This document shows positions 3,042 to 45,041 of a DNA stretch of 64,000 bases, piece by piece; positions within the stretch are counted from its first letter, which is position 1; every line of letters starts with the position of its first letter. This DNA comes from Rhizobium ruizarguesonis (GTDB lineage Bacteria > Pseudomonadota > Alphaproteobacteria > Rhizobiales > Rhizobiaceae). The notes below the pieces were generated by a model. It saw nothing but the letters and a program-made list of their open reading frames with translations. It made no database searches and was not told the origin of the DNA. Both the position numbers and the translations under genes were made by a program. Location of the stretch: assembly GCF_012349115.1 (NCBI RefSeq), contig NZ_PQIG01000133.1:1-64000 (forward strand). Direction: 5' to 3'.

Positions 3042-3239
3042 GGGAAGGATCCGGTTGCGGGGAGTACCTTAACCAGCAGAAGCCGCAGGAAAAGATGGCG
3101 GAGCCAAGAAATATGCGGACAACCACCCCTCTTACAGCCCCGGACGCGATTACCTGTGACTTCGGCCGCAGACATTCCGCCGCAAGCCTCGAATAGTTCT
3201 TCGCAGAGGACAATCGCCGTTCCGGCGCGGGGGCATTTC

Positions 3240-3602
3240 ATGAAGCGGGTTCTTGCATCGCTTGCGGTTCTGACGTCCCTCGCCGGCTCGGCCCTTGCCG
3301 ACACCTACGGCGCCATCGCCTATTCGCCGTCGACCAGCGCTATCGGCTGGTCCTATGCTTATGACAATCGCGGCGACGCCGAAACCGTTGCCCGGCGCAA
3401 TTGCGACAGCAGCGCCAATGACTGCCGGATCGCCATCTGGTTCCGCAATGGCTGCGGCGCGCTGGCCGTCGGCCATCGCGGCGGCTGGGGCTCCGGCTGG
3501 GGTTACGACAATCGTGAGGCCCAGCGCCAGGCAATCCGCAGCTGTAGAAAACAAACCGGCAGCTGCCGCGTCATCCGCTGGCAATGTTCCGGCAGTGAAT
3601 GA
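3240..3602 (+). CDS. Secreted DUF4189 family protein
   Basis: A 120-residue protein with a Sec signal peptide (MKRVLASLAVLTSLAGSALA, cleavage after ALA). The mature part shows the DUF4189 pattern: YGAIAYSPS, a central acidic-Cys segment (NCDSSANDC), NGCGALAVG, and a C-terminal SCRKQTGSC plus WQC. Six cysteines suggest disulfides in the periplasm. Function is unknown for the family. It is divergent from the endonuclease-family gene and convergent with the ABC transporter ATPase gene, so probably monocistronic. Confidence 0.8.
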   Translation: MKRVLASLAVLTSLAGSALADTYGAIAYSPSTSAIGWSYAYDNRGDAETVARRNCDSSANDCRIAIWFRNGCGALAVGHRGGWGSGWGYDNREAQRQAIRSCRKQTGSCRVIRWQCSGSE

Positions 3603-3622
3603 TTCTGGCTGAGTGCGGCGTC

Positions 3623-4678: not shown

Positions 4679-6360
4679 GGGACCACTCCTTTCGGCAGTC
4701 GTTTCGCCAGAAGTTCGAGCAGCAGCATCAGCACGACGACCATGAGCACGACGAGCACCGACAGCGCCGAGGCAAGGTCGGAGCTGCCGCTGTCGTCGAG
4801 ATTGTAGATGGCAACACCGAGCGTCTGCGTGCCGGCAGACCAGAGCAGCGCCGAGATCGTCAGCTCGTTGCAGGCAATCAGGAAGACAAGGATAACGGAG
4901 GCGCCCGCGGCCGGCGCAATCAGCGGCACGATGATATCGGCAAGCCGGCGGAAGAAGCCGGCCCCGGAAAGCCGTGCGGCCTCTTCCAGCGCCGGATCGA
5001 GCTGATGGAAAGCGCTGACCACCGGCTTCAGGCTGACGGCGAAGAACGAGGAGAAATAGGCGATCAGGATGATCCAGATCGTGCCGTAAAGCGAGACGTG
5101 CAGGATCGGGATCGGTGCAGCGAACACCAGGATGAAGGAAACAGCCATGACGATGCCGGGCAGCGAATAGGGTATTTCGATCAGGCTGGAGACGATGCGG
5201 GAAGCCAGATCCCTGCGCCGCGTCAGCGCATAGGCCGCAAGCACTGTCACCACGAGGAGACAAAGCGCGATGGCGGCGGCAAGTGACAGCGAGTTGATGA
5301 AGGCGGTGCGCGTCACCGCCTGCCGGAACAGGATCTCCTGAAAAGCATGCAGTGACATGGTCTTGAAGGTGAGCGGCACGCCATAGGCCGGCACCAGCGC
5401 GCCGGCGATCAGCGCGAAAAAGGGCGCGGCCAGCATGAAGAACAGGATAGTCCAGACGAGTGGCGTGAACACGAAACGCCAGGCGCCGAGCTCGAAGGCG
5501 GCACTCGCCCCGGATAACCCGATGACACGGTAGTCGCGGCCGCGCAGCGCTCGGTCCTGGATCATCAGCCCGACGATCGAGATGATGGCGATGATTGCCG
5601 AGAGCACGGCGACGTCGCCGAAAGTGCGGTTGGTGAAAGCGGAAAACTTGGTGAAGATCAACGTCGGCAACGTGAAGATCGAGGCAGGAATGCCGAGAAT
5701 GGCGGGAATGCCGAAATTGCCGGTGCAGGAGACGAAGGAGATCGCCGCACCCGCGATGATGCCGGGCAGCGACAGCGGCAGGATGATGTCGCGGAACACC
5801 CGCAGGCTGGTAGCGCCTGAAAGCCGTGCTGCCTCGACGCCGTCGCGGGGCAGCGTCATAAGCCCAGCCCGCAGCGCCAGGTAGACCAGCGGCGCATGCT
5901 GCACGCCGTAAAGCAGCGCGATGCCCCCGACAGAATAGAGCGGCTGCGGCGAACCCAGCGGCGGGGCGATATGCAGCGCCTTCAACAACGGGCTGGAGGG
6001 GCCGGACATCTGCACCCAGGCCAGCGCCGTCACCTGCGGTGGGATCATCATCGGCAGCACGAAGAAGAAGCTCAGCGCCCCCTTGGCGCGGATATCGGTC
6101 AGCGTCAGCAGGAAGGCAAAGAGGCAGCCGATGATGAGCGAGATGATTGTGCCCAGAATGGCGGTGACGACCGTGTAATAGGTTGACGACCACAGCGAGG
6201 CGTCGCCGAGAACCGTCATCACCCCGCCGTCGGCAAAGGCCGCGATCCCGACCATAGCCAGGCGGGCGAGCGGCAGCACGCTGAGGATCAGGACGATGAT
6301 GACGACAAAAGGAAACAGCCAGGCGGGCTGGCTGTTTCCGGTTTTGATGTATCCGTGCAT
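4666..6360 (-). CDS. ABC transporter permease, fused two-domain (FbpB/AfuB type)
   Basis: A 564-residue inner-membrane protein with about twelve hydrophobic segments and two copies of the binding-protein-dependent transport permease module. EAA-like loops are seen as EAARLSGATSLRVFRDIILP (first half) and EEAARLSGAGFFRRLADIIVP (second half), where the ATPase docks. A single fused permease is typical of the iron(III) FbpB family and of some 2-aminoethylphosphonate importers. The start is 7 bases after the stop of the binding-protein gene. Substrate is not decided by sequence. Confidence 0.92.
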   Translation of the reverse strand: MHGYIKTGNSQPAWLFPFVVIIVLILSVLPLARLAMVGIAAFADGGVMTVLGDASLWSSTYYTVVTAILGTIISLIIGCLFAFLLTLTDIRAKGALSFFFVLPMMIPPQVTALAWVQMSGPSSPLLKALHIAPPLGSPQPLYSVGGIALLYGVQHAPLVYLALRAGLMTLPRDGVEAARLSGATSLRVFRDIILPLSLPGIIAGAAISFVSCTGNFGIPAILGIPASIFTLPTLIFTKFSAFTNRTFGDVAVLSAIIAIISIVGLMIQDRALRGRDYRVIGLSGASAAFELGAWRFVFTPLVWTILFFMLAAPFFALIAGALVPAYGVPLTFKTMSLHAFQEILFRQAVTRTAFINSLSLAAAIALCLLVVTVLAAYALTRRRDLASRIVSSLIEIPYSLPGIVMAVSFILVFAAPIPILHVSLYGTIWIILIAYFSSFFAVSLKPVVSAFHQLDPALEEAARLSGAGFFRRLADIIVPLIAPAAGASVILVFLIACNELTISALLWSAGTQTLGVAIYNLDDSGSSDLASALSVLVVLMVVVLMLLLELLAKRLPKGVVPWRG

Positions 6361-6367
6361 GAAAGGA

Positions 6368-7345
6368 TCAGTTCGAGCCGTAGATGCCCGAGAAGGTCTT
6401 GAGATCCTGGTCGGTATTCTTCAATGCTTCGGCCGCCTTGATCGGCAGGACCTTGATGGTGTCGCGCGCCGGAAAGCCTTCCGGCAGCTTCATGCCGTTG
6501 CGGGCCGGGATGTAGCCGAGCTTCAGGAAGCCTTCCTGGCCCTTTTCGGAGAGCACGTAATCGACGAACTTCCTGGCGGCATCGGCGTTCTTGGTGCTGG
6601 CGAGGATGCCGACCGGCTCGGTGACGGCCGAAACGCCTTCGCTCGGGAAGACGAACTCGACCGGAGCGCCCTTGGCCTTCTCGCGGATCGGCAGGTAATC
6701 GACGACCATGCCATAAGCCTTTTCGCCCGAGGCAACCGACTTCAGCACGGCGCCGTTGCCGCCGGCGGCGATCGCACCGTTTTCGGCAAGCGACTTGTAG
6801 AAGTCCCAGCCGAGGCCGGGAACGGCGGCAAGCGTCTGGGCGTGGATAAGGGCCGCACCCGAGGCAAGCGGGCTCGGCATGGTGACCAGGCCCTTGGCTT
6901 CCGGCTTCGTCAGGTCCTTCCAGCTCGCAGGCTTCATCGCGGCCGAAGCGTTATACATGATGCCGGTGGTGATCAGCTTGGTCGAGTAGTAATAGCCGTC
7001 GGCGTCATAGAGGGCGGCGTCGTACCCTGCGGCTTCCGGCGACTTGTAGGCCAGGAGTTTGCCGTCTTCCTTGAGGCGCTCCAGCGTCACCACGTCGGCA
7101 ATGAGGAGAACGTCGGCGACCGGGTTGCCGGCCTGGATCTCGGCCTGGAGCTTCGCCATGATCTTCGGCGTTCCGTCGCGCACCCAGTCGACCTTGATAT
7201 CGGGATTGGCGGCCATGAAGCCGTCGACCGTCGCCTGTGCGTCTTCGTTCGGCTGACTGGTGTAGAGAACGAGGTTTGCGGCCGAAGCCGGAATGGCAAA
7301 GAGGCTCGCAGCGACAAGTGTTGCGGCGGAAACGATCGTTTTCAT
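6368..7345 (-). CDS. ABC transporter substrate-binding protein (iron(III)/phosphonate type)
   Basis: A 325-residue periplasmic protein with a signal peptide (cleavage after PASA near residue 22) and the start of the mature chain NLVLYTSQPNEDAQ, typical of the AfuA/FbpA-like extracellular solute-binding family. Length and the central ITTGIMYNASA and C-terminal LGYIPARNGMK segments fit. Tyr residues around 118-120 (YYYS) could be ligands if the cargo is ferric iron, but phosphonate or other anion binding is equally possible. First gene of a three-gene operon with the permease and ATPase. Confidence 0.9.
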   Translation of the reverse strand: MKTIVSAATLVAASLFAIPASAANLVLYTSQPNEDAQATVDGFMAANPDIKVDWVRDGTPKIMAKLQAEIQAGNPVADVLLIADVVTLERLKEDGKLLAYKSPEAAGYDAALYDADGYYYSTKLITTGIMYNASAAMKPASWKDLTKPEAKGLVTMPSPLASGAALIHAQTLAAVPGLGWDFYKSLAENGAIAAGGNGAVLKSVASGEKAYGMVVDYLPIREKAKGAPVEFVFPSEGVSAVTEPVGILASTKNADAARKFVDYVLSEKGQEGFLKLGYIPARNGMKLPEGFPARDTIKVLPIKAAEALKNTDQDLKTFSGIYGSN

Positions 7346-7543
7346 GGGAGGGATCCTCGATTTCGATACCCCTCCCTTATTAGGGGTCCTTTACAGAGAT
7401 GTGACAGCGCGCCGCAGCCGCCGCGGCGCCATTCCCACAACCTTCCTTGGTGGTTCGCCCGCCCTGCCGACAATACAGTTGATCGCCCTTCCGATTTCTG
7501 GAATCGCCTGTGGACGCGGCCTGATCCTGGCCGATTCGAGGGG
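7346..7543. promoter_or_regulatory. Divergent intergenic region between the ABC importer and the channel gene
   Basis: The 198-base region must contain the promoters of both the importer operon (leftward) and the channel gene (rightward). Two near-complementary runs, ACCCCTCCC (7369-7377) and TTAGGGGTCC (7380-7389), flank the importer start. No consensus promoter can be named with confidence. Confidence 0.35.
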
Positions 7544-9451
7544 ATGGCAAGAATGAGACGGGCATCTTGGCGCGCGCGCCTGCGCTACCAGTTCGACAAG
7601 AGCATGGCCGCCGGCCCGATCGCCCTGATCGGCTGGCTGGCGGTGATATCGCTGGTCGCCATCATCGCTGCCGGCCTGGTGCTGGCGCTGACTGGCATTG
7701 CGCCTGATGGCGGCGAGCATCTGAGCTTCGTCGAGGGCGCCTGGGAATCGCTGATGCGCACCATGGATGCCGGCACGATGGGCGGCGATATCGGCTGGCC
7801 CTTCCGCGGCGTCTCCCTTGTCGTCACCATATCGGGCATCTTCGTCTTCTCGGCCCTGATCGGCGTGCTGAGTTCCGGCCTCGAGGAAAAGCTGGACGAC
7901 CTGCGCAAGGGCCGCTCGCAGGTGCTCGAAAACGACCATACGATCATCTTCAACTGGTCGCCCTCAATCTTCGACGTCATCTCCGAACTCGTCATTGCCA
8001 ACACCAGCCGGCGCCGCCCGCGCATTGTCATCATGGCCGCCAAGGACAAGGTGGAGATGGAGGACGAGCTTGCCGACAAGATCGAAAATCTCAGGAACAC
8101 CCGTATCATCTGTCGCAGCGGCGATCCGACTGATCTTTACGACATCAACATCGTCAACCCGCACACCTCGCGCTCGATCATCGTGCTGTCGCCGGAAGGC
8201 GACCATGCCGATTCCGAGGTCATCAAGACGGTGCTCGCCCTCGTCAACGATCCCGGTCGCCGCAAGGAGCCCTACCAGATCGCCGCCGAAATCCGCGACA
8301 CCAGGAATGCAGAGGTGGCGCGCATCGTCGGCGGCAAGGAATTGCAACTGGTGCTTGCCGACGACCTGATCTCGCGCATTGTCGCCCATTCCAGCCGCCA
8401 GTCGGGACTGTCTGGCGTCTATTCCGAACTGCTCGATTTCGAAGGCTGCGAGATCTATACGCTCGAGCAGCCCGAACTCTCCGGTAAAAGCTTCGGCGCC
8501 GCCGTGATGATGTACGAGAGCTCGACGCTGATCGGCTTCTGCGACAACGAGGGCGCGGTACATCTCAACCCGCCGGCAAACCGCATCTTCCTGCCCGGCG
8601 AGCGCGCCATCATCATCGCCGAAGACGATGCCGCGATCAAAAGCGCCGCCGCCGAGATGCGTATCGACAAGGAGGCGATCCGGGCTCCAGTGACACGCGA
8701 GACAAAGGCGGAGCGCACGCTGATGCTCGGCTGGAACCGCCGCGGCCCGATCATCGCCCGCGAGCTGTCGCGTTATGTCGCCCCTGGTTCGCAACTCACC
8801 ATCGCCGCCGATACGCCCGATATCGAAGAGGAGGTTCGTGGCCTGACGCTTGCGAGCGACAACATGGCGGTCACCTGCCGCGTCACCGATACCAGCAGCC
8901 GCGCCGAACTCGACGACCTCGATATTCCCGCCTACGACCACGTGCTTGTGCTCGGCTACTCCGACCACATGGCCGCACAGCCCGCCGACACCCGCACGCT
9001 CGTCACCCTTTTGCAGCTACGCCGGATCGCCGAGAAAACCGGCCGCCACATCGGCATCGTCAGCGAGATGATCGACGTGCGCAACCGTGAGCTTGCCGCC
9101 GTCACCCGCGCCGACGATTTCGTCGTCAGCAACAAGCTCGTCAGCCTGATGCTGGCGCAGGCCTCCGAGAACGGCCAGATGGCGGCGATCTTCGACGAAC
9201 TGCTCGACGAGGACGGCTCGGAAATCTACATGCGCCCCGTCACCGACTATGTTTCGATGGACAAGCCGCTGACCTTCTATACGATCTGCCTTGCGGCGCT
9301 GCGCCGCGGCGAGGTCGCGATCGGCTATCAACGGCAGCGGCAGGGAGAAGCCGACGCCCGCAATCTTTCCGGCGTCGTCGTCAATCCCGGGAAATCGGAT
9401 CTTCTGGCCTTTGCCGAGGCCGATCGCCTGATCATCCTCGCCCGCCAGTGA
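7544..9451 (+). CDS. CASTOR/POLLUX/SYM8-type ion channel protein
   Basis: A 635-residue membrane protein resembling the bacterial relatives of plant CASTOR, POLLUX and SYM8. Two N-terminal hydrophobic segments (about residues 22-50 and 85-107) flank a pore-helix-like stretch with the candidate filter AGTMGGD. They are followed by a charged linker and two large cytosolic RCK/TrkA-N-like halves (about 120-370 and 385-630), as in K+ channel gating rings. The second half starts with LMLGWNRRGP, a Rossmann-like nucleotide loop. The start may be ATG 7544 or the in-frame ATG 7553. Likely role is cation homeostasis; ion selectivity is unknown. Confidence 0.82.
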   Translation: MARMRRASWRARLRYQFDKSMAAGPIALIGWLAVISLVAIIAAGLVLALTGIAPDGGEHLSFVEGAWESLMRTMDAGTMGGDIGWPFRGVSLVVTISGIFVFSALIGVLSSGLEEKLDDLRKGRSQVLENDHTIIFNWSPSIFDVISELVIANTSRRRPRIVIMAAKDKVEMEDELADKIENLRNTRIICRSGDPTDLYDINIVNPHTSRSIIVLSPEGDHADSEVIKTVLALVNDPGRRKEPYQIAAEIRDTRNAEVARIVGGKELQLVLADDLISRIVAHSSRQSGLSGVYSELLDFEGCEIYTLEQPELSGKSFGAAVMMYESSTLIGFCDNEGAVHLNPPANRIFLPGERAIIIAEDDAAIKSAAAEMRIDKEAIRAPVTRETKAERTLMLGWNRRGPIIARELSRYVAPGSQLTIAADTPDIEEEVRGLTLASDNMAVTCRVTDTSSRAELDDLDIPAYDHVLVLGYSDHMAAQPADTRTLVTLLQLRRIAEKTGRHIGIVSEMIDVRNRELAAVTRADDFVVSNKLVSLMLAQASENGQMAAIFDELLDEDGSEIYMRPVTDYVSMDKPLTFYTICLAALRRGEVAIGYQRQRQGEADARNLSGVVVNPGKSDLLAFAEADRLIILARQ

Positions 9452-9455
9452 ACCC

Positions 9456-9521
9456 GCGTGTGAAAGTTCACACGCAAGCGAGCGTGGGAGCTCGCGCAAG
9501 CGAGTTCACGCAGGCGTGAAC
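9456..9521. terminator. Two strong hairpins downstream of the channel gene
   Basis: Two perfect inverted repeats follow the stop codon within 70 bases: GCGTGTGAA-N2-TTCACACGC (9456-9475) and GTTCACGC-N2-GCGTGAAC (9504-9521). A weaker GCTCGC/GCGAGT pairing (9490-9505) lies between them. The two share the core TTCACNCGC, so they can also cross-pair. No T-tract follows, so this is a stem-loop transcript end or repeat rather than a classical terminator. Confidence 0.55.
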
Positions 9522-9588
9522 GCGCGGCGATTTGCCATTGCCGGGCTTTGCGCTACGTCACTCACATTTGGATGAGGGAGGAATTTCA

Positions 9589-10647
9589 ATGGAATATCGT
9601 CTGCTCGGCCGTTCCGGCCTGAAGATTTCGACTTTGACCATGGGCACGATGACCTTCGGTGGCGTCGGCTGGGCAAAGACCGTCGGCGACCTCGGCGTTG
9701 CAGAGGCACGCAAGATGATCGACATGTGCATCGATGCCGGCATCAACCTGATCGACACCGCCAACGCCTATTCATCAGGCGAATGCGAAAACATCATCGG
9801 CGATGTGCTCGGCGGCAAGCGGCCGCAGGGCGTGTTGCTCGCCACCAAGGCCCGCTTCAGCATGGGCGACGGCCCGAACGACCAGGGCCTGTCGCGCTAC
9901 CACCTGATCCGCGAATGCGAGGCGAGCCTCAAGCGGCTGAAGACCGATGTCATCGACCTCTACCAGGTGCATGAATGGGACGGCCAGACGCCGCTGGAAG
10001 AGACGATGGAAGCGCTCGACACCCTGATCAGGCAGGGCAAGGTGCGTTACGTCGGCTGCTCGAATTATTCCGGCTGGCACATCATGAAGGCGCTCGGCAT
10101 CGCCAACGAGCACAGATACCAGCGCTTCGTCAGCCAGCAGATCCACTATACGCTGGAGGCCCGCGACGCCGAATATGAGTTGCTGCCGATCTCGATCGAC
10201 CAGGGCCTCGGCGTGCTGGTCTGGAGCCCGCTCGCCGGCGGCCTGCTCTCCGGCAAGCATCGCCGCAACCAGGCAGCCCCCGAAGGCACGCGCCAGTTCG
10301 CCGGCTGGACCGAACCGCCGATCCGCGATGAGAACCGCCTTTGGAACATCGTCGAGACGTTGGTCGCGATCGGCGAAGAGCGCGGCGTTTCGGCGGCACA
10401 GGTGGCGCTCGCCTGGCTGATCGGCCGCAAGGCCGTGACCTCGGTCATCATCGGCGGCCGCACCGAAGCCCAGTTCCGCGACAACATCGCCGCCGCCGAG
10501 CTGAAACTCACGGACGACGAACGCAAGCGCCTCGACGCGGTCAGCCTGCCGCCGGTGATCTATCCCTATTGGCACCAGCTGAACACGGTTAGCGACAGGC
10601 TTGGTGAAGCCGACCTCGAGCTTTTCGGCCCGCATCTCCAGCAATAG
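9589..10647 (+). CDS. Aldo/keto reductase
   Basis: A 352-residue NADPH-dependent aldo/keto reductase. Seen are the N-terminal LGRSGLKISTLTMGTMTFGG, the catalytic Asp/Tyr segment LIDTANAYSSGECE (Asp about 52, Tyr about 57), the active-site His in DLYQVHEWDG, and the C-terminal coenzyme segment SVIIGGRTEAQFRDN. It belongs to the YajO/Tas-like group that reduces aldehydes and ketones of uncertain physiological identity. The ATG at 9589 follows a good Shine-Dalgarno sequence (GAGGGAGGAA). It stands alone between the hairpins at 9.5 kb and the YukJ-like gene. Confidence 0.9.
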   Translation: MEYRLLGRSGLKISTLTMGTMTFGGVGWAKTVGDLGVAEARKMIDMCIDAGINLIDTANAYSSGECENIIGDVLGGKRPQGVLLATKARFSMGDGPNDQGLSRYHLIRECEASLKRLKTDVIDLYQVHEWDGQTPLEETMEALDTLIRQGKVRYVGCSNYSGWHIMKALGIANEHRYQRFVSQQIHYTLEARDAEYELLPISIDQGLGVLVWSPLAGGLLSGKHRRNQAAPEGTRQFAGWTEPPIRDENRLWNIVETLVAIGEERGVSAAQVALAWLIGRKAVTSVIIGGRTEAQFRDNIAAAELKLTDDERKRLDAVSLPPVIYPYWHQLNTVSDRLGEADLELFGPHLQQ

Positions 10648-22958: not shown

Positions 22959-24005
22959 ATGCCTATTGCAAGAGGCTACGCCGCGACCGACGCTTCCAAG
23001 CCGCTGACCCCTTTCACCTTCGAACGCCGTAACCCGAACCCCGACGACGTCGTTATCGACATCAAGTTTGCCGGCATCTGCCATTCGGACATCCACACTG
23101 TCCGCAACGAATGGAAGAACGCCGTTTATCCGATCGTGCCCGGCCATGAGATCGCCGGCATCGTCTCGGCTGTCGGTTCCGATGTGACCAAATTCAAGGT
23201 CGGCGATCGCGTCGGCGTCGGCTGCTTCGTCGATTCCTGCATCGGCTGCGCCGAGCGCGACCTCGATCGGGAACAGTATATGCCGGGGCTCGCCGGCACC
23301 TACAATGACTTCGAAGCCGACCGCAAGACACGGACCCAGGGCGGCTATTCCGACTCGATCGTCGTCAGGGAAGGCTATGTCATGTCCATTCCGGACAATC
23401 TGCCGCTCGATGCCTCCGCGCCGCTGCTCTGCGCCGGCATCACGCTCTACTCGCCGCTGCGCCACTGGAATGCCGGCCCCGGCAAGAAGGTTGCGATCGT
23501 CGGCATGGGCGGCCTCGGCCACATGGGCGTCAAGCTCGGCGCCGCCATGGGCGCCGATATCACCGTTCTCTCCCAGAGCCTTTCCAAGAAGGAAGACGGG
23601 CTGAAGCTCGGCGCCAAGGAATATTACGCCACCAACGACCCGGAAACCTTCACGAAGCTTGCCGGCACTTTCGACCTGATCATCTGCACCGTCAGCGCCG
23701 AGATCGACTGGAATGCCTATCTCGGCCTCCTGAAGGTGGATGGTTCCTTCGTGGTGGTCGGCGCGCCGGAAAACCCGATCCCCGTGCATGCCTTCTCGAT
23801 CATCCCCGGCCGCAAGAGCATATCCGGCTCGATGATCGGCTCGATCAAGGAAACCCAGGAAATGCTCGACTTCTGCGGCGAGCACAACATCGTCTCCGAG
23901 ATCGAGAAGATCAACATCCAGCAGGTCAACGAAGCCTATGAACGCGTCCTGAAAAGCGACGTCCGCTACCGCTTCGTCATCGACATCGCCTCGCTGGCGG
24001 CTTAA
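22959..24005 (+). CDS. NAD(P)-dependent zinc-type alcohol dehydrogenase (YahK/CAD-like)
   Basis: A 348-residue medium-chain dehydrogenase of the cinnamyl-alcohol/YahK group, reducing aldehydes with NADPH. Catalytic-zinc elements are CHSDIH (about residue 42) and PGHEIAG; the Rossmann loop is [17 protein letters not shown]. The lobe that normally holds four structural-zinc cysteines reads [16 protein letters not shown], so at least two ligands are missing. The ATG at 22959 has AAAGGA eight bases upstream and is preferred to the ATG 9 bases earlier. Divergent from, and probably activated by, the AraC regulator. Confidence 0.9.
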
Positions 24006-38467: not shown

Positions 38468-39391
38468 TCAGTTCCACTGCGGGTCCGCGCCGCTCGCGCA
38501 CATCGACGGGTCCTGCCCAATAGCGTCGATGAGAAAATCCAGAACCGTCTTGACGCGCAGCGGCATGTTGCGCCGCGAGGGATAGACGACGGTAACCGGC
38601 AGCCGGCTCGGCTGGAAATCCTTCATCACCGGGACCAGCCGGCCGGCGGCGATATCGGGCATGGCGATGATGTGCGAAAGCACCGCAAGACCCGCTCCAG
38701 CAAGGGCTGCCCGGTGAATGGCGACGGCATTGCAGGCGGTCAGCCGCGGTGAGATCCGGACCGATATGTCTTCCGAACCGTTCGAGAAGGACCAGGTATT
38801 GGCCTCACCTGCCCTGTTGTAGCACAGGCATTCATGGTCCTTGATCTCCTTCGGTGCGCGGGGAGCCGCCCTGCGCGCGAGATAAGCGGGAGATGCAACG
38901 AGGAAGGCGGTCGTCCAGCCGATCCGCCGGCAGACGAGGCTGCTGTCGGCAACCTGGCCCAAGCGCACTTCGAGATCCAGGCGCTCCTCGATCATATCCG
39001 AGCCCTGCTCCCTGAAAATGAGTTCGACGGAGAGCTTTGGATGGGCGGCGAGAAGATCGCCGAGCCGCTCGCTGAGACAGAGGCCGAGTGGTGCTGGAAC
39101 GCTGAGCCTGACCTTTCCCGAGGCCATGGCTCCGTCCGATCCGGCCGCATCGCCAAGCTCCTCAACCGCTTCGAGAATCCGCAGCGCCATCGGCAGCATC
39201 CGCTCCCCCTCTGCCGTCAGCGATAGGCCGCTCGTCGTGCGATGCAGCAGGCGGGTGTTGAAATGGCCTTCGAGGGCGGCGACCTGTCGCGAGACCGCCG
39301 GCTGCGTCACGTCGAGATCGTGCGCCGCCGCCGAGAACGAACCCGTCTCCACGACGCGCCGAAACGTCCGCAATGCCGATACGATATCCAT
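38468..39391 (-). CDS. LysR family transcriptional regulator
   Basis: A 307-residue LysR regulator: N-terminal HTH (LRTFRRVVETGSFSAAAHDLDVTQPAVSRQVAALEGHFNTRLLHRTTSGLSLT, residues 6-60) and the periplasmic-binding-like effector domain (90-300). It is divergent from the AhpD-like gene cluster and could co-regulate it, but that intergenic region also has a strong Rrf2-type palindrome nearer the cluster. Effector unknown. Confidence 0.9.
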   Translation of the reverse strand: MDIVSALRTFRRVVETGSFSAAAHDLDVTQPAVSRQVAALEGHFNTRLLHRTTSGLSLTAEGERMLPMALRILEAVEELGDAAGSDGAMASGKVRLSVPAPLGLCLSERLGDLLAAHPKLSVELIFREQGSDMIEERLDLEVRLGQVADSSLVCRRIGWTTAFLVASPAYLARRAAPRAPKEIKDHECLCYNRAGEANTWSFSNGSEDISVRISPRLTACNAVAIHRAALAGAGLAVLSHIIAMPDIAAGRLVPVMKDFQPSRLPVTVVYPSRRNMPLRVKTVLDFLIDAIGQDPSMCASGADPQWN

Positions 39392-39463
39392 CCCCGCCCC
39401 CTCATACTTTTGCGCATAGGCCTTATGCAGCCAGACTAAGCGAGAATGGCTTTACAGTCTAGC

Positions 39464-39509
39464 AATTAAGGATATCTTTTATCCATAAGGATATTTGATA
39501 TCCTTAATT
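39464..39509. promoter_or_regulatory. Candidate Rrf2-type operator upstream of AhpD-like cluster
   Basis: AAGGATAT-N3-ATATCCTT is a perfect 8-3-8 dyad at 39487-39505. A related imperfect dyad AAGGATA-N5-TATCCAT lies just to the left (39468-39486). The outer arms AATTAAGGATATC and GATATCCTTAATT (39464-39476, 39497-39509) are perfectly complementary. It ends 15 bases before the ATG of the first cluster gene and so would block transcription or translation start. The same core and spacing recur upstream of the convergent Rrf2 gene. Confidence 0.75.
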
Positions 39510-39523
39510 AGAGGAGAAGTTAC

Positions 39524-40003
39524 ATGACCCAGCGACTGAACTACGCCCAGCAGTCCCCCGAGCTTTTCAAGAAATTCATGGAATTCAGCATGGCGCTGAA
39601 GAGCAGCGTGATCGACGAGAAGCTGCAGGCCCTCGTCGAGATCCGCGCTTCGCAGATCAATGGATGCGGCTTTTGCCTCGACATGCATGTGAAGCAGGCC
39701 AAGATCCTCGGCGAAACCGAACTCCGGCTTTATCACGTCGCCATCTGGCGGGAATCGACCCTGTTCATCCCCCGCGAGCGCGCAGCGCTTGCCTGGACGG
39801 AAGCTCTGACGAAGTTGCCGGAAGGCGGCATTCCCGATGAGATTTACGAACGGGTTCGCGGCCAGCTTTCCGAGAAGGAAATCTCGGACCTGACTTTCGT
39901 CGTCATGGCGATCAATGCCTGGAACCGCGTCAATGTCGGCTTCAAGACCGTACCCGGCGCGGCCGACAAGGCTTATGGCCTCGACAAGGCCGGCCTGAAC
40001 TAA
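39524..40003 (+). CDS. AhpD-like carboxymuconolactone decarboxylase family protein
   Basis: A 159-residue AhpD-family protein. The peroxidase motif E-x8-C-x2-C-x3-H is intact: Glu39, Cys48, Cys51, His55 in ALVEIRASQINGCGFCLDMH. Such proteins reduce peroxides or protect against redox stress with a disulfide relay. Good Shine-Dalgarno GAGGAG. First gene of a four-gene cluster preceded by the Rrf2-type dyad, which fits redox or metal stress control. Confidence 0.9.
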   Translation: MTQRLNYAQQSPELFKKFMEFSMALKSSVIDEKLQALVEIRASQINGCGFCLDMHVKQAKILGETELRLYHVAIWRESTLFIPRERAALAWTEALTKLPEGGIPDEIYERVRGQLSEKEISDLTFVVMAINAWNRVNVGFKTVPGAADKAYGLDKAGLN

Positions 40004-40071
40004 ACCGCGCAATTCATTGAGAAGATTCACCTTTGACGCTGCCGCACCGCGGCAGTAAACGGAGATCTGTT

Positions 40072-40827
40072 ATGAAAATCGTTGTCATCGGCGGAACCGG
40101 CCTCATCGGTTCGAAGACTGTCGAACGCCTGCGCAAGTACGGCCACGAAGTGATCGCCGCCTCGCCGAACTCCGGCGTCAACACGATCACCGGAGAAGGA
40201 TTGGCGGAGGCGCTCTCGGGCGCCGAAGTCGTGCTCGACCTCGCCAATTCTCCGTCCTTCGAGGACAAGGCCGTGCTCGAATTCTTCGAGACCTCGGGCC
40301 GCAATCTTCTCGCTGCCGAAAAAGTGGCCGGCGTGAAGCATCATATCGCCCTTTCGGTGGTCGGCACCGAGCGTCTGCAGGAAAGCGGCTATTTTCGCGG
40401 CAAGCTCGCCCAGGAAAAGCTGATCAAGCAATCCGGCGTTCCCTACACCATCGTTCACTCGACTCAATTCATGGAATTCCTCGGCGGCATCGCCCAATCG
40501 GGGACGGTCGGCCAGACGGTCCGCCTGTCGCCGGCCTATGTGCAGCCGATCGTTTCCGACGACGTCGCCGATGTCATGGCGGATGTGGCTCTCGCACCGC
40601 CCGCTAATGCGACGATCGAAATATCAGGTCCGGAACGGGCGCGCCTCAGCGAACTCGTCGCCCGGTATTTGAAGGCCATGAAAGATCCGCGCACCGTCGA
40701 GGCCGATGCCGAGGCGAAATATTTCGGCGCGAGACTCAACGACCAGTCGCTTGTTTCGGACAATAACCCGCGGCTCGGCTCGATCACCTTCGAGCAGTGG
40801 TTCGCCAAGTCCGCCCAGCCGAAGTGA
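40072..40827 (+). CDS. NAD(P)-binding SDR-like protein
   Basis: A 251-residue NAD(P)-binding protein of the NmrA/atypical SDR type: Rossmann loop VVIGGTGLIGSKTVERL (residues 4-20), NTITGEGL, VVGTERLQESGYFRGK, and a C-terminal segment (FEQWFAKS). No catalytic Tyr-Lys pair is seen, so it may be a reductase-like sensor or oxidoreductase acting on a small molecule. Second gene of the AhpD cluster, 68 bases after the first. Confidence 0.8.
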   Translation: MKIVVIGGTGLIGSKTVERLRKYGHEVIAASPNSGVNTITGEGLAEALSGAEVVLDLANSPSFEDKAVLEFFETSGRNLLAAEKVAGVKHHIALSVVGTERLQESGYFRGKLAQEKLIKQSGVPYTIVHSTQFMEFLGGIAQSGTVGQTVRLSPAYVQPIVSDDVADVMADVALAPPANATIEISGPERARLSELVARYLKAMKDPRTVEADAEAKYFGARLNDQSLVSDNNPRLGSITFEQWFAKSAQPK

Positions 40828-40896
40828 TGCGACTTGCCCTGAGGACGCGGCCACTCGGGCGCGTCCTGCCCAAACCCTGCAACCATGGAGATTCCG

Positions 40897-41313
40897 ATGA
40901 TCCGAACATCATTCCTCGCCGCTGCGCTCGCCCTTCTGGCTGCCACGGGCGCCAGCGCCGATGAGAGCAGCAAAGCTGCCAAGGTGACGCTCGTCTATGA
41001 ACACGAACTTCCGAACGTACCGGGCAAGAGCATCAAGGGCGTGCTGGTCGAGTACGGCCCAGGCGGCTTCTCCGACGGCCACACCCATCCCGATACGGCC
41101 TTCATCTACGCCACCGTGCTCGAAGGAGCGATCCGCAGCCAGGTCAATGACGGCCCCGTCAAGGTCTATCATGCCGGAGAGAGCTTCTCCGAAATGCCGG
41201 GTGACCGCCATGGTGTCAGCGCCAACGGTAGCGAGACGAAGCCCGCCCGCCTGCTCGCCGTCTTCGTCGTCGATACCAAGCAGAAAGAGCTGACCTATCC
41301 GCTCAAGAAGTGA
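40897..41313 (+). CDS. Secreted cupin-domain protein
   Basis: A 138-residue exported cupin. Signal peptide MIRTSFLAAALALLAATGASA; the cupin core has GVLVEYGPGGFSDGHTHPDTAFIYATVLEGAIRSQV (His ligands in GHTHP) and FSEMPGDRHGVSANGS. The chosen ATG 40897 has GGAG seven bases upstream. Third gene of the AhpD cluster. Substrate unknown; may bind a metal or small toxic compound in the periplasm. Confidence 0.82.
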   Translation: MIRTSFLAAALALLAATGASADESSKAAKVTLVYEHELPNVPGKSIKGVLVEYGPGGFSDGHTHPDTAFIYATVLEGAIRSQVNDGPVKVYHAGESFSEMPGDRHGVSANGSETKPARLLAVFVVDTKQKELTYPLKK

Positions 41314-41407
41314 TGATCCGCCTATACCGCCCGCGCAAGCCCCGAGCTTGCGCGGGCGGCCGAGATGCTGAATCATGTGCGGCCCGCCCTATCCCGGAGA
41401 CAGAGTG

Positions 41408-42889
41408 ATGATTGACGACGTGCTCTTCGGCAAGCCTCTGATATCCCTCATTACAGTTGGATTCGCCGGGATCATCGTTTGGCATCTTCTCTCCCGCCAA
41501 CGGCCGACGACGCGACTGGTGGTGCAAATCCTCTTCTTTGCGGTGATGACGTTGATCCTCGTCATCAGCGGCATCGAACCCCACCGGTTTCAAGGATATG
41601 AGTCCGAGGACCCGCAGGCCCTGCTCGTCATCGTCGCGAAATCGCTCTGGTGGATCCATCTGGCATGGGCCGTCATCGGTTTCATCAGGCTGTATCTGGT
41701 ACTGGAGGGTAGTCCGCGAGAAGCCCGACTGCTCCAGGATCTCGTCATCGGGGTCGTCTATATCGGCATGGCCCTATCGGTTATGGCCTTCGTCTTCGGT
41801 GTGCCGATCGGCACCCTCGTCGCGACCTCGGGCGTGGTCGCCATCATTCTCGGTTTGGCGCTCCAGAATACGCTGGCCGACGTCTTCTCCGGCATCGCGC
41901 TGACACTCGGCCGCCCATACATCATCGGCGACTGGATCCTTCTCAGCGACGGCACGGAGGGGCGCGTCGTCGAAAGCAACTGGCGCGCGACACACATTCT
42001 GACCAGCGCAAACAATGTCGTCGTTCTGCCGAACAGTTTTCTGGCAAAGCTCGGCCTGACGAATGTAAGCCGGCCTGACGAGACCCATCTCCTGGTCCTC
42101 ACCATCCGCATCGCCCCGACGCGGATGCCGGCATCGGTCCGGAACGTCATGGCAACGGCGCTTGCGAGCTGCAATTCGATCGTGCGCGAGCCGCCGCCGG
42201 TCGTGGCACTGAAGGGGCTGGATGCCACGGCGCTGGAGCTCGAGTTGCAGTTCCGGGTGACGAGCCCGAGCCAACGGGTGACGGCACGAAACGAGGTACT
42301 CGATCTCGTCTATCGTCACTGCAAATCAGCCGGCCTGCTTTTGGCTGTTCCGGCGGCGGCCTCAATCCTGACGGGCGATCTGCCGACCGAAGAAAGCGCA
42401 CGGCCGCCCCGTGTGACGCCGCTCGAACTGATCGAGGCCATTCCAATCTTTGCGACGCTGACATCAGATGAAAAGCAGAAACTCGCCGAGACCACGGCTG
42501 TGCGGGAATTCCGCAAGGGCGATGTCATCGTGCGGGAGGGCGAGATGCTCCCGTCGCTGATGATGGTGCGGGCAGGTATCGTCGCGGCGCGGCACGGAGA
42601 TGAGGAACGCGGACGGCTCGCGCCGGGCGATTTTTTTGGAGAGACCGGACTACTCGCCGGCCTGCGGGAAGTCTGCACCCTGGAGGCTCTGACCCCCGTG
42701 ACCGCGTATGAGATCGATCAAGAGGCCTTCGCGCCGCTGCTAAGCGAACGCCCCGCGCTGGCGGAAGAAATCGCCGACCACCTCGCCAGCCGCGCCGAGC
42801 GTTTCCGCAACGGCACCTCTTTGCCCCCGGAACATGCCCGCAGTGCACATGCCATCCTGAAGACCATCAGGACCATCTTCAAGGCGTAG
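41408..42889 (+). CDS. MscS-family channel with C-terminal cyclic-nucleotide-binding-like domain
   Basis: A 493-residue protein: several N-terminal helices, then an MscS pore and beta domain (VATSGVVAIILGLALQNTLADVFSGIAL, then GRPYIIGDWILL; about residues 135-175), a linker with an LSM-like beta fold, and a C-terminal cNMP-binding-like domain (about 355-470, FRKGDVIVREGEMLP, GRLAPGDFFGETGLLAG). It resembles the bacterial cyclic-nucleotide-gated MscS family. The phosphate-binding cassette reads GETGLLAGLREV, without the canonical Arg-Ser/Thr-Ala, so ligand binding may be lost or changed. Last gene of the AhpD cluster. Confidence 0.88.
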   Translation: MIDDVLFGKPLISLITVGFAGIIVWHLLSRQRPTTRLVVQILFFAVMTLILVISGIEPHRFQGYESEDPQALLVIVAKSLWWIHLAWAVIGFIRLYLVLEGSPREARLLQDLVIGVVYIGMALSVMAFVFGVPIGTLVATSGVVAIILGLALQNTLADVFSGIALTLGRPYIIGDWILLSDGTEGRVVESNWRATHILTSANNVVVLPNSFLAKLGLTNVSRPDETHLLVLTIRIAPTRMPASVRNVMATALASCNSIVREPPPVVALKGLDATALELELQFRVTSPSQRVTARNEVLDLVYRHCKSAGLLLAVPAAASILTGDLPTEESARPPRVTPLELIEAIPIFATLTSDEKQKLAETTAVREFRKGDVIVREGEMLPSLMMVRAGIVAARHGDEERGRLAPGDFFGETGLLAGLREVCTLEALTPVTAYEIDQEAFAPLLSERPALAEEIADHLASRAERFRNGTSLPPEHARSAHAILKTIRTIFKA

Positions 42890-42906
42890 AGATCGGCACC
42901 CCCCGC

Positions 42907-43395
42907 TCAGCCGGCGCGCTTGAGCACCCATTCGAACGTGCTCCGCCAAATGTCGGCCGGCACTTCCTCGGACAAGGTGCCGACCAGATCGGAAAGCCGG
43001 ACGCGCCTTAGCGTATCCCGCCAGGCCTCGTCGGCCTCCCACATGATGCGCGCGACCGCGCATGGCTTGCTGTCGCAATATCCTTCCGGTCGGCAGGGAT
43101 TGTTCGCCCGGATGTTCGTACAGGTGAAGCTGCGGGCCTTCCCTTCGACCGCCTCCACGATCTCGAGAAAATTGATGTCCGAGGGGGGCTTGGCAAGCCT
43201 GTAACCGCCACTCGGGCCGAGCGTGGTCTCGACAAGCGATGCCTGCGAAAGGCTCTGCAGTGCTTTGGAGAGATATTCCTTCGGCAGACCATGAAGCTCC
43301 GCGAGCGCCTTGGTGGAAAGATACCTGCCCTTTGGCAGGCCCGCGAGAATGGCGCAGCAGTGAAGCGCCCACTCGACCTGGCTTTTCAGGATCAT
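42907..43395 (-). CDS. Rrf2 family transcriptional regulator
   Basis: A 162-residue Rrf2 regulator of the IscR/NsrR/RsrR class. The HTH is in the N-terminus (YLSTKALAELHGLPKEYLSKALQSLSQASLVETTLGPSGGYRLAKP), and a four-Cys set (Cys92, Cys101, Cys107, Cys112) follows, typical of an Fe-S-binding sensor. It is convergent with the AhpD-cluster MscS gene and its own upstream DNA carries the same palindrome as that cluster, so it is the probable regulator of the cluster and of itself. Confidence 0.9.
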   Translation of the reverse strand: MILKSQVEWALHCCAILAGLPKGRYLSTKALAELHGLPKEYLSKALQSLSQASLVETTLGPSGGYRLAKPPSDINFLEIVEAVEGKARSFTCTNIRANNPCRPEGYCDSKPCAVARIMWEADEAWRDTLRRVRLSDLVGTLSEEVPADIWRSTFEWVLKRAG

Positions 43396-43434
43396 TCAGC
43401 AACTCGTGTGATGGCTGGCTCTGCCGGTGGAATT

Positions 43435-43453
43435 AAGGATATATCATATCCGA
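43435..43453. promoter_or_regulatory. Candidate Rrf2 operator upstream of the Rrf2 gene
   Basis: AAGGATAT-N3-ATATCCGA (AAGGATAT 43435-43442, ATATCC 43446-43451) has the same 8-base half-site and 3-base spacer as the dyad at 39487, with two mismatches in the right arm. The preceding ATTA also matches. It lies about 40 bases upstream of the Rrf2 ATG, which suits autoregulation. Confidence 0.7.
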
Positions 43454-43505
43454 AAACCGACTCGATGTAAACGAGCTGAACGGCGATGCGGACTCCGATC
43501 TCCCC

Positions 43506-44132
43506 TCAGCCCGCGTTCTCGTCCTCCCCCCGCGCCTGCTCACTTTCAATTCCGGCGATCAGCTTGCGCAGCAGCGCTGCGAGCGCCTCGCGCTCGTTTC
43601 CGTCAAGAGCCTGCAGAAACGAAGCTTCGCTCGCCATGTCGGTGCGGAAGGCCTTTTCGGCGAGTGCCGCACCCGCCTCGCTCAATGCCACCAGCACGCT
43701 GCGCCCATCGCGTGGTGATTTCTCCCGGCGGATCAGTCCCGCCTTCTCCAGCCGGTCAAGCCTGTGGGTCAGGCCTCCCGAGGAGATCATCAGCGCCGAA
43801 TACATCTCCGTCGGGGTCAGCCGGTAAGGCGCTCCGGAACGGCGAAGCGTTGCGATCACGTCGAATTCGCCGCGGTCGAGGCCAAAATCGGCAAATGTCG
43901 CCTCGATGCTGGGGCGCACCAGGTTCGACAGCCGGAAGGCCCGCCCCAGGATCGCCATCGGCTCCGTATCGAGGTCGGGCAGTTCCACCGCCCATTGCCG
44001 GCGCAGCCGGTCGACATGGTCATCCCCGGAGCGGTCACTGTCCCTGGGGCGGTCCTCGTCCCCCCGGCGGTCGCGGTCCCCTTCAATCCCATTCATCATT
44101 CTCTGCCTCATATGCCACCACAGCCGAGACAT
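43506..44132 (-). CDS. MarR family transcriptional regulator with charged N-terminal tail
   Basis: A 208-residue MarR protein. Residues about 75-170 hold the winged HTH (LTPTEMYSALMISSGGLTHRLDRLEKAGLIRREKSPRDGRSVLVALSEAGAAL). The first about 45 residues are unusual, rich in Asp and Arg (GDRDRRGDEDRPRDSDRS), and may be a later start's untranslated region: in-frame ATGs lie at 44111, 44099 and 44096 with better Shine-Dalgarno context. Divergent from a cupin/VOC pair, with several repeats of GAAGATA between them. Ligand unknown. Confidence 0.85.
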   Translation of the reverse strand: MSRLWWHMRQRMMNGIEGDRDRRGDEDRPRDSDRSGDDHVDRLRRQWAVELPDLDTEPMAILGRAFRLSNLVRPSIEATFADFGLDRGEFDVIATLRRSGAPYRLTPTEMYSALMISSGGLTHRLDRLEKAGLIRREKSPRDGRSVLVALSEAGAALAEKAFRTDMASEASFLQALDGNEREALAALLRKLIAGIESEQARGEDENAG

Positions 44133-44147
44133 ACACCTTCCATTCGA

Positions 44148-44206
44148 GTCAAGGAAGATATCTTGACAGGAAGATACTTTTAAGAATATATCTTCTCACG
44201 AAGATA
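44148..44206. promoter_or_regulatory. Repeated GAAGATA operator array between MarR and cupin genes
   Basis: The half-site GAAGATA occurs at 44154, 44170 and 44200, and its complement TATCTTC at 44189; AAGATATCTT (44155-44164) is a perfect 10-bp palindrome, TATCTTC-N4-GAAGATA (44189-44206) a perfect 7-4-7 dyad and GTCAAG-N8-CTTGAC (44148-44167) another arm pair. Multiple sites in a 59-base divergent promoter region suggest cooperative MarR binding. Confidence 0.65.
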
Positions 44207-44243
44207 CTTTGCATTCGCAAACGGCACGAGCGGGAGGCACGTG

Positions 44244-44579
44244 ATGTTCAGGATAGTTCGCCACCAGGAGCCACAACCCGATCAGAGCCGGACGGTCCGC
44301 TTCGAGGGCCGCGACTACGGCGGCGAGATCTCGCTCTTCATTGTTGACAATGAACCGGGTCAGGGGCCGGGCCTGCATGTCCACCCCTATTCAGAGACCT
44401 GGGCGGTCAGGAAAGGCGAGGCCGAATTCACCGTGGGTGAGACCACGACTCGCGCCTTTCCGGGCGATATCGTCGTCGTGGCCGCCAACGTTCCGCATCG
44501 TTTCGAGAATGTCGGCATGGGACGGCTCGAAATCGTCTGCATTCATGCCAGTGACACGATCGTGCAAGAGTTCTTGTGA
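44244..44579 (+). CDS. Cupin-domain protein
   Basis: A 111-residue single-domain cupin without signal peptide. Metal-site motif HVHPYSETWAVRKGEAEFTVGE (residues 46-67, His46, His48, Glu52) and second motif FPGDIVVVAANVPHRFENVG (with the last His). The family includes small oxygenases, isomerases and binding proteins. Good Shine-Dalgarno GGGAGG. Followed by a VOC protein gene 45 bases downstream, and divergent from MarR, its likely repressor. Confidence 0.85.
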   Translation: MFRIVRHQEPQPDQSRTVRFEGRDYGGEISLFIVDNEPGQGPGLHVHPYSETWAVRKGEAEFTVGETTTRAFPGDIVVVAANVPHRFENVGMGRLEIVCIHASDTIVQEFL

Positions 44580-44624
44580 GGCGAGACTGTCCCCTGGAAA
44601 ACAACCGAAGAGGAGGAAACTGCA

Positions 44625-45041
44625 ATGCCCAAGATGATCTTTGTGAACCTGCCGGTGAAAGACATTGCTGCTGCGATCCGCTTCTACGAAGCGATCGGAT
44701 GCACGAAGAACGAACAGTTCAGCGACCATCAGGCGTCGAACATGGTGTGGTCCGACGCCATCATCTTCCACTTGCTGACGCGCGATTTTTTCGCGACCTT
44801 CACGCCGAAGCCGGTTGCCGAAGCGCAGAAGACCAGCGAGGTCCTGTTAGCCCTGGCACAGGACAGCCGCGAAACGGTGGACGCCATCGTCGAAGCGGCA
44901 GCAACCGCCGGCGGCAAGGCCGATCCGCGCGCCCCAACCGACATGGGCTGGCTCTACAACCGCGCCTTCGAGGATCCCGATGGCCATATGTTCGAGGCGG
45001 TCTGGGTCGACATGGCGGCAGTGTCCACCACCGGAGAATAG
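44625..45041 (+). CDS. VOC (glyoxalase/bleomycin resistance) superfamily protein
   Basis: A 138-residue VOC-fold protein of the extradiol dioxygenase/glyoxalase type: opening MPKMIFVNLPVKDIAAAIRFYEAIGC and closing YNRAFEDPDGHMFEAVWVD are typical. Lacks some of the metal-binding residues of glyoxalase I, so likely binds or sequesters a small molecule. Shine-Dalgarno GAGGAGG. It is the second gene after the cupin and presumably co-regulated by MarR. Confidence 0.85.
   Translation: MPKMIFVNLPVKDIAAAIRFYEAIGCTKNEQFSDHQASNMVWSDAIIFHLLTRDFFATFTPKPVAEAQKTSEVLLALAQDSRETVDAIVEAAATAGGKADPRAPTDMGWLYNRAFEDPDGHMFEAVWVDMAAVSTTGE

Follow-up and report, generated by a model that had tools for sequence, protein, structure and literature searches.

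Does a single palindrome tie an Rrf2-family regulator to a group of putative detoxification genes and a mechanosensitive-type channel gene in Rhizobium ruizarguesonis, and is such a switch of a new or of a known kind? The question was raised by an earlier note on a 64,000-nucleotide stretch of this organism (contig NZ_PQIG01000133.1, positions 1 to 64,000 of the forward strand; the window in what follows), in which a dyad had been noticed before an AhpD-like gene and again before an Rrf2 gene. The answer proposed here, in which we have good confidence, is that an RsrR-type [2Fe-2S] Rrf2 protein represses both itself and the AhpD-like operon by way of these dyads and is released upon a change in its cluster. 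The elements concerned are the following.

42907..43395, minus strand: RsrR-type Rrf2 regulator with putative [2Fe-2S] ligands E8, H12, C92 and C112 and the switch residue W9
39468..39486, no strand: distal dyad with two mismatches, over the predicted -10 box
39487..39505, no strand: proximal dyad, perfect, AAGGATAT-TTG-ATATCCTT
43435..43453, no strand: dyad before the Rrf2 gene (putatively autoregulatory), two mismatches
39451..39478, plus strand: predicted promoter of the AhpD-like operon, with -35 TTTACA (39451-39456), a gap of 16 nt and -10 TATCTT (39473-39478)
43443..43471, minus strand: predicted promoter of the Rrf2 gene, with -35 TTTACA (43471-43466), a gap of 17 nt and -10 TATGAT (43448-43443)
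39524..40003, plus strand: AhpD-like protein of the CMD family with CXXC and His (CGFCLDMH); PF02627 and TIGR00778 above cut-off
40072..40827, plus strand: NmrA-like NAD(P)H-binding oxidoreductase; PF13460 and PF05368 above cut-off
40897..41313 (alternative start 40885), plus strand: small cupin (Cupin_2, PF07883) whose N-terminus looks, by eye, like a secretion signal
41408..42889 (alternative start 41375), plus strand: MscS-superfamily channel with a C-terminal domain resembling those that bind cyclic nucleotide monophosphates (cNMP); PF00924 and PF00027 above cut-off

The dyad, AAGGATAT-N3-ATATCCTT, was indeed found to be perfect at 39487-39505; at 43435-43453 it recurs with its 3-bp spacer unchanged and two mismatches. 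Directly next to the perfect one, at 39468-39486, lies a third copy, absent from the earlier note, and the two make a tandem of dyads 19 bp apart. The predicted -10 boxes of both promoters in the window sit within dyads. When up to three mismatches were allowed, four dyads were found in the window, as against a mean of 0.02 in dinucleotide shuffles of its whole length; the fourth (23371-23389, three mismatches) lies away from these genes.

To follow the dyads across relatives, the Rrf2 protein was used as the only query to collect 80 loci. They are the best 80 of 181, many of them closely related, and come from Rhizobium, Mesorhizobium, Sinorhizobium/Ensifer, Neorhizobium, Phyllobacterium, Labrys, Shinella and other Rhizobiales, with Rrf2 proteins that are 78-99% identical. 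The dyad at the Rrf2 promoter (three mismatches or fewer) was present in 75 of the 80 loci, where shuffles predict 0.04, and the abutting pair (six summed mismatches or fewer) in 78 of the 79 loci that have an AhpD-like gene, where shuffles predict 0. The offset within the pair has a sharp optimum at 19 bp, with 3.8 summed mismatches versus more than 8 at all other offsets from 14 to 31. In the consensus, the arms lengthen to ATTAAGGATAT-N3-ATATCCTTAAT, that is, an 11-3-11 layout. The distance from dyad to start codon is held as well, at 14-22 bp for the AhpD-like gene (78/79) and 32-42 bp for the Rrf2 gene (72/80), and the -35 hexamer of the AhpD-like promoter reads TTTACT, TTTACA or TTTACC in 71 of 79 loci. 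An AhpD-like gene is nearby in 79 of the 80 loci and an NmrA-like gene in 77; 71 loci carry the full set of LysR, AhpD-like, NmrA-like, cupin and MscS genes, and one (L111) carries none of it. The locus of R. johnstonii 3841 (formerly R. leguminosarum), L039, is laid out like that of the window. The proposal that a single dyad links the Rrf2 gene with the AhpD-like operon is thus supported: the dyad stands at both promoters in nearly all 80 loci and overlaps the predicted promoters.

A search of the genome for the dyad, which the earlier note had put forward as a check, showed that it is not widespread. The whole 7.7-Mb genome holds 14 dyad sites at three mismatches or fewer, versus three for a backwards control pattern; at two or fewer there are five, three of them at the AhpD-like/Rrf2 locus. 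The exact core GGAYA-N5-TRTCC occurs at 15 places, versus nine for the control. The scoring matrix was derived from the conserved sites of the 80 loci, which themselves score 21.1-43.1. The dyads of the locus reach 41.8, 39.4 and 32.2, and a site before a second RsrR-type Rrf2 gene (contig C74) reaches 23.1; only these four exceed 20, and the remaining places of both lists (15 exact-core and 14 dyad sites, overlapping) score 7.9 or less. For the other low-scoring stretches, in one of the two scored sets, the best position falls inside an open frame that spans 80 codons or more, although in G+C-rich DNA such frames are weak evidence of coding. These genome-wide counts come from pattern searches, which can miss divergent sites. 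Taken together, the shuffles, the pattern searches, the matrix scores and the conservation over 80 loci led us to reject the dyad as a chance or widespread element. The term 'self-contained regulon' can be kept in part: among the scored genome sites, the dyad is essentially confined to the locus, but the operator of the second RsrR-type Rrf2 gene has the same core.

The regulator itself contains an Rrf2 domain (PF02082, 113 bits with a cut-off of 30). Among solved structures, those of RsrR come closest in sequence (E 4e-32), all other proteins being at 3e-9 or worse. A fold search of the PDB gave RsrR chains at ranks 1-11 with a template-modelling (TM) score of about 0.8, and CymR, NsrR and IscR lower; the model used, made from 23 aligned sequences, has a mean predicted local distance difference test (pLDDT) score of 82.6 and is weak over residues 91-110 (53-63), where three of the cysteines lie. 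E8, W9, H12, C92 and C112 are invariant in all 80 orthologues and align with E8, W9, H12, C90 and C110 of RsrR. The protein had been described as a 'four-Cys' one. It has in fact six cysteines (13, 14, 92, 101, 107 and 112), of which C13, C92, C101, C107 and C112 are invariant in 80/80 orthologues and C14 is kept in 79/80, and the informative residues are E8, H12, C92 and C112. The idea of an Fe-S redox-sensing regulator is thus backed by the RsrR ligand set together with the sequence and fold matches to RsrR. In a tree of 25 rows, the window protein and RsrR fall within a group of 15 (support 85/99) that leaves out five control Rrf2 proteins and whose inner order is unresolved, and the window protein groups with L151, L165, L168 and L169, four of its distant relatives (87/99); both supports are below the tool's star, and the control rows sit on very long branches. 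The RsrR-type assignment therefore leans on the ligands. An IscR-, NsrR- or RirA-type protein was considered and rejected on ligands, sequence and fold, with the NCBIfam models far below cut-off.

The earlier note knew of no system in which a redox or Fe-S signal feeds a mechanosensitive-type channel. For the core of the system, an unknown kind is not supported. RsrR of Streptomyces venezuelae has the ligands E8, H12, C90 and C110 and a redox switch carried by W9 (PMC9218516, PMC11138216). Its class 1 sites are 11-3-11 repeats, two of which lie 1 bp apart between rsrR and the NmrA-type gene sven6562, and this gene is strongly induced on loss of RsrR (PMC5015018). DNA is bound tightly with the oxidised cluster, weakly with the reduced cluster and not at all by the apo-protein (PMC5015018). 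A redox-switched [2Fe-2S] regulator with 11-3-11 operators, tandem sites and an NmrA target was therefore on record (PMC5015018), and the core of the rhizobial system is of a known kind. No description of a rhizobial RsrR or of an Rrf2-AhpD-NmrA-MscS operon was found among the titles and abstract openings listed in searches of the open-licence PMC literature.

The likeness to RsrR (Sven6563) and sven6562 covers the Rrf2 fold, the E8/H12/C90/C110 ligands, W9 and an NmrA-type gene in the operon as the predicted target. It extends to autoregulation and to 11-3-11 inverted repeats with a 3-bp spacer at the regulator's own promoter and, as two tandem sites, at the target promoter, binding of the rhizobial protein being predicted at both. 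The two systems differ in other respects. The tandem sites are spaced 19 bp centre to centre here, whereas RsrR has two 25-bp sites with 1 bp between them; the operon here adds AhpD-like, cupin and channel genes; the regulator has two extra invariant cysteines; and few strong sites were found among those scored, unlike the 630 ChIP-exo sites of RsrR.

How far does this arrangement reach beyond close relatives? A further 33 loci were taken from the paralogue in the same genome, 13 other genomes (all that matched), seven chosen matches from the same genus and 12 plasmid records, the last picked for diversity among 60 listed of 105 found. Two of these loci (L150 and L181) hold close orthologues of the window protein (about 76-77%). 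The ligand set is kept in 30 of the 33, and the other three (L165, L168 and L169) do not enter the counts that follow. Profile matches of the AhpD- or NmrA-like kind were found in 21 of the 30 (stretches of 7-14 kb), and at least nine of the ten core operator bases occur within 120 bp upstream of the Rrf2 gene in 19 of the 30, where 0.41 would be expected. In the 13 genomes that were not chosen, each feature was found in 8/13, and two more loci (L151 and L152) have tandem cores, again 19 bp apart, before an AhpD-like gene. Plasmid records of Leisingera, Metabacillus, Microvirga, Streptomyces, Deinococcus, Priestia and Azospirillum place RsrR-type genes beside genes for CMD, NAD(P)H-binding, oxidoreductase or cupin proteins, in combinations that differ from record to record. 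The homologue on a plasmid of Streptomyces cyaneofuscatus is divergent from a gene for an NAD(P)H-binding protein and has two full core operators 27 bp apart, so that the rhizobial and Streptomyces systems are tied by their operator too; this likeness is drawn through the plasmid homologue. An RsrR-type regulator with detoxification genes and matching palindromes thus appears to recur in widely separated bacteria.

In several related Rrf2 proteins (L160, L161, L162, L167, L173, L177, L179 and L180), Tyr replaces W9, and AACGCGGA-like palindromes lie upstream; in L160, L167, L179 and L180, the palindrome directly abuts the start codon. Since the Tyr-9 relatives carry these palindromes, changes in the recognition helix may go together with changes in the outer operator arms. 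Two of the Rrf2 relatives that lost the Fe-S ligands, L168 (about 3337-9887) and L169 (about 2554-7413), are flanked by LysR genes and have an MscS-type gene close by; L168 also holds genes that resemble, by eye, those for nitroreductases and glutathione transferases.

The mechanism proposed for the window draws on the protein family, the ligand residues, the operators, their conservation, their overlap with predicted promoters and the lack of any other strong scored site, all of which were read from sequence; from there on, we infer the binding to the dyads, the formation of the cluster, the direction of the switch, its trigger and the enzyme activities. The Rrf2 protein would form a homodimer with a subunit-bridging [2Fe-2S] cluster, to which one chain contributes E8 and H12 and the other C92 and C112. 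The DNA-binding form would occupy one dyad at its own promoter and the two abutting dyads at the AhpD-like promoter. The bound dyads would cover the predicted -10 boxes and the transcript start, RNA polymerase would therefore be blocked, and both units would be off. If the cluster becomes reduced, suffers damage or is lost, the protein would leave the DNA. The derepressed operon would then yield a thiol peroxidase of the AhpD-like kind, an NmrA-like reductase that uses NAD(P)H and probably acts on quinones, and a small cupin for export; the MscS-type channel would probably be made in lower amounts.

The earlier gene calls underlying this scheme (CMD/AhpD-like, NAD(P)H-binding/NmrA, Cupin_2, MscS beta-domain with cNMP domain, and Rrf2) were all borne out by profile search. 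The AhpD-like protein has the AhpD core domain (TIGR00778, 51.5 bits with a cut-off of 27.8) and, in CGFC-LDM-H, both the CXXC and the His. Its nearest solved relatives include PA0269 of Pseudomonas (E about 1e-37), for which weak peroxidase activity was reported (PMC3141380). The cupin matched none of the solved structures at E 0.01. By analogy, the combination of AhpD-like, NmrA-like and cupin proteins suggests a defence against oxidants or quinones. An inserted gene of about 305-350 aa separates the AhpD-like gene from the NmrA-like gene in 17 loci out of 80 (L063, L066-L068, L070, L072, L089, L093, L094, L096, L101, L102, L104, L106, L108, L110 and L113); the one scanned, from L066, encodes a metallo-beta-lactamase-fold protein.

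Several observations weigh against this scheme. RsrR has no cysteines at the positions of C101 and C107, which are invariant here, and identity to it is only 39% over 157 columns, as counted on the orthologue L035; the cluster could therefore be a different one. The promoter predictions are weak, with three promoter-like sites versus 1.3 in shuffles. Nine of the 30 distant RsrR-type loci have no AhpD- or NmrA-like profile match, L165 does have an NmrA-like match despite lacking the full ligand set, and no operator core was seen in the two Bacillota loci searched. Close relatives are frequent among the 80 loci and also occur among the 30; the counts are therefore not independent. Finally, release on reduction, as in RsrR, would be odd for a peroxide-defence operon unless cluster loss is the trigger.

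The weak part is the channel. The earlier note had a redox or Fe-S signal feeding an MscS-type channel; the linkage of this gene in 75 of the 80 loci speaks for it, whereas the short versions of the protein in the other lineages, the five loci in which tblastn detected no MscS-type gene and a G+C-rich hairpin before the gene speak against it. In most loci, the operon ends with the channel gene, and the window protein has an MscS beta-domain (PF00924, 49.7 bits with a cut-off of 20.2). Its homologues are long (493-526 aa) in 31 loci (L035-L065) and short (325-395 aa) in 41; one locus has an open reading frame of 110 aa, and no intact one was recovered in seven. According to Pfam, the cNMP domain is present in the window protein and in one other long version and absent from the two short versions scanned. 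An Arg in the phosphate-binding cassette is the usual feature of cNMP-binding domains. The cGMP-dependent kinases used in an alignment show PRSAT or QRSAT at the cassette; in the channel, this residue is Glu in 29/29 sequences matched by motif search, and the domain does not look ligand-competent. A working cyclic-nucleotide gate is therefore doubted. The order of MscS beta-domain and cNMP-type domain is that of bCNG, the MscS-superfamily channels with a cNMP domain, but the Glu in the cassette and the two short versions without the domain set this protein apart. A structure model of the channel (mean pLDDT 56.3) was too poor and was not used.

The hairpin in question is the following.

41328..41358, plus strand: 13-bp G+C-rich hairpin without a T tract, between the cupin gene and the channel gene

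The region around it (41311-41420) has a fold z-score of -3.25 and was not called a terminator. Stems of at least 10 bp occur in this gap in 21 of 71 relatives, versus 4/68 and 0/55 in the operon's two other gaps; with stems of at least 8 bp, the contrast fades (31/71 versus 18/68 and 23/55). The long stems differ in sequence among relatives. As a general feature of the cupin-channel gap, the hairpin was upheld only in part, since 8-bp stems are also common in the other gaps. It is possibly an RNA processing or attenuation element.

It is quite conceivable, if not what we would favour, that the channel gene lies effectively outside the regulon, is expressed separately and is merely downstream. 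The strong hairpin fits this reading, as do the loci without the gene, and no dyad at three mismatches or fewer was among the matches listed between the cupin and the channel gene. Moreover, nine other MscS-cNMP matches were obtained, and in the five stretches examined (that of the paralogue in the same genome and one each from four of the eight further genomes matched), no AhpD, NmrA or Rrf2 match was found. Against separate expression stand the shared strand, gaps of 4-177 bp by aligned ends and the linkage in 75 loci, the missing T tract, the 50 of 71 relatives without a 10-bp stem at this place and the fact that the ligand-less Rrf2 relatives L168 and L169 are also near an MscS-type gene. 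Membership of the channel in the regulon is plausible but unproven, and the channel, linked mainly in Rhizobiales, may be a local extra of the arrangement.

Do the two RsrR-type regulators of this genome act apart? Seven Rrf2 genes were found above the Pfam cut-off, of which two have the ligands, both with an AhpD-like neighbour. None of the other five has such a neighbour (one stretch ends at a contig end), and their best core matches are 6 to 8 of 10. The second RsrR-type protein (G000 contig C74:50300-50750; L130, about 5729-6760) is 43% identical to the window protein over the matched stretch and has Q at position 9, with GGATA-N5-TATCC upstream of its gene and an AhpD-like gene directly downstream. 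That the two proteins share operators and make up one cross-wired regulon seems rather doubtful to us. The score of the C74 promoter core lies inside the conserved range, and the C74 regulator has an AhpD-like gene of its own, both of which would fit cross-wiring; but the outer arms are ATCATGG/CCACGAA at C74 and ATTAAGG/CCTTAAT at the window locus, and the recognition-helix stretch reads GVSTSYLLKHLQA in the C74 protein and GLPKEYLSKALQS in the window protein.

It is unlikely that the regulator has no RsrR-like redox cycling and acts instead as a cysteine thiol switch (as SifR, YwnA and HypR), its six cysteines sensing quinones or hypochlorite, or through a labile [4Fe-4S] cluster for NO or iron (as NsrR and RirA). 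Like IscR, NsrR and RirA, it is presumably an Fe-S-binding Rrf2 repressor, but the ligand sets and operators of those three differ from the RsrR type, and the matches of IscR and NsrR to the window protein are far weaker in sequence and fold. YwnA/YwnB of Bacillus and SifR/YwnB of Streptococcus resemble the present pair in that an Rrf2 regulator is linked to an NAD(P)H-dependent oxidoreductase; unlike the window protein with its six cysteines, YwnA and SifR are single-cysteine thiol sensors without an Fe-S cluster, and the pneumococcal regulon has iron uptake genes. RclR of Pseudomonas aeruginosa likewise is a dedicated regulator adjoining an AhpD-like gene (RclX), but belongs to the AraC family and not to Rrf2. 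A thiol or [4Fe-4S] switch would agree with C101 and C107, which RsrR lacks, with the YwnB quinone reductase as partner of SifR (PMC9218516) and with the protection that RclX gives against hypochlorous and hypothiocyanous acid (PMC7950407). The four RsrR ligands and W9 are nevertheless all invariant, and the nearest fold is that of RsrR, not of NsrR, IscR or YwnA (1xd7).

On the other side of the AhpD-like gene lies one more regulator gene.

38468..39391, minus strand: LysR-family regulator (PF00126/PF03466), divergent from the AhpD-like gene

LysR proteins usually control their divergent neighbour, and this gene is opposite to the AhpD-like gene in 79/79 loci with both (tblastn; the LysR match of one, L080, is weak) and within 300 bp in 78 of them. 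Even so, it is very improbable that the dyads are sites of the LysR protein, with the Rrf2 gene as a bystander or LysR target, when the Rrf2 gene, 4 kb away, has the same dyad before it, GGAYA-N5-TRTCC stands before RsrR-type genes with no LysR profile match in the stretch (e.g., L130, L154, L155 and L156) and 11-3-11 is the layout of RsrR (PMC5015018). Alongside repression by the RsrR-type protein, the LysR protein may supply a second input. A near-palindrome, GCATAGGCCTTATGC, lies at window 39414-39428, and CTTATG was seen by eye upstream in many relatives; the near-palindrome may be the site of the LysR protein.

Beyond the Rrf2 gene, at window 43506-45041, a MarR gene is divergent from a second cupin gene and a VOC-family gene. 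GAAGATA/AAGATATCTT elements are repeated upstream of the MarR gene (about 44147-44212, by eye), and the same gene adjoins the locus in 12 of the 80 relatives (tblastn).

A wider reading, attractive but tentative, is that RsrR-type repressors form a widespread family with the shared core GGAYA-N5-TRTCC and lineage-specific outer arms, which ancestrally guarded AhpD-like, NmrA and cupin genes, and that in Rhizobiales the switch captured an MscS-type channel. As part of the same reading, the cNMP domain of the channel would have lost ligand binding, and redox state or electrophile stress would set ion efflux through gene expression; the electrophile-gated Kef systems offer an analogy.

Judging from the sequences compared, the regulator most likely shuts off itself and the neighbouring detoxification genes by sitting on the palindromes. 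Deletion of RsrR in S. venezuelae gave no phenotype, and the NmrA gene was the sole direct target to change significantly (PMC5015018). The rhizobial locus combines a compact operon, few predicted sites, precise operators and a tractable soil bacterium, so that signal, switch direction and output are directly testable. Its recurring partner genes point to the detoxification of oxidants or quinones, and the operator core lets RsrR-type regulons be predicted in other bacteria. Most valuable are the operator code, a predicted regulon of compact size and the recurrent link of RsrR-type regulators to AhpD, NmrA and cupin genes.

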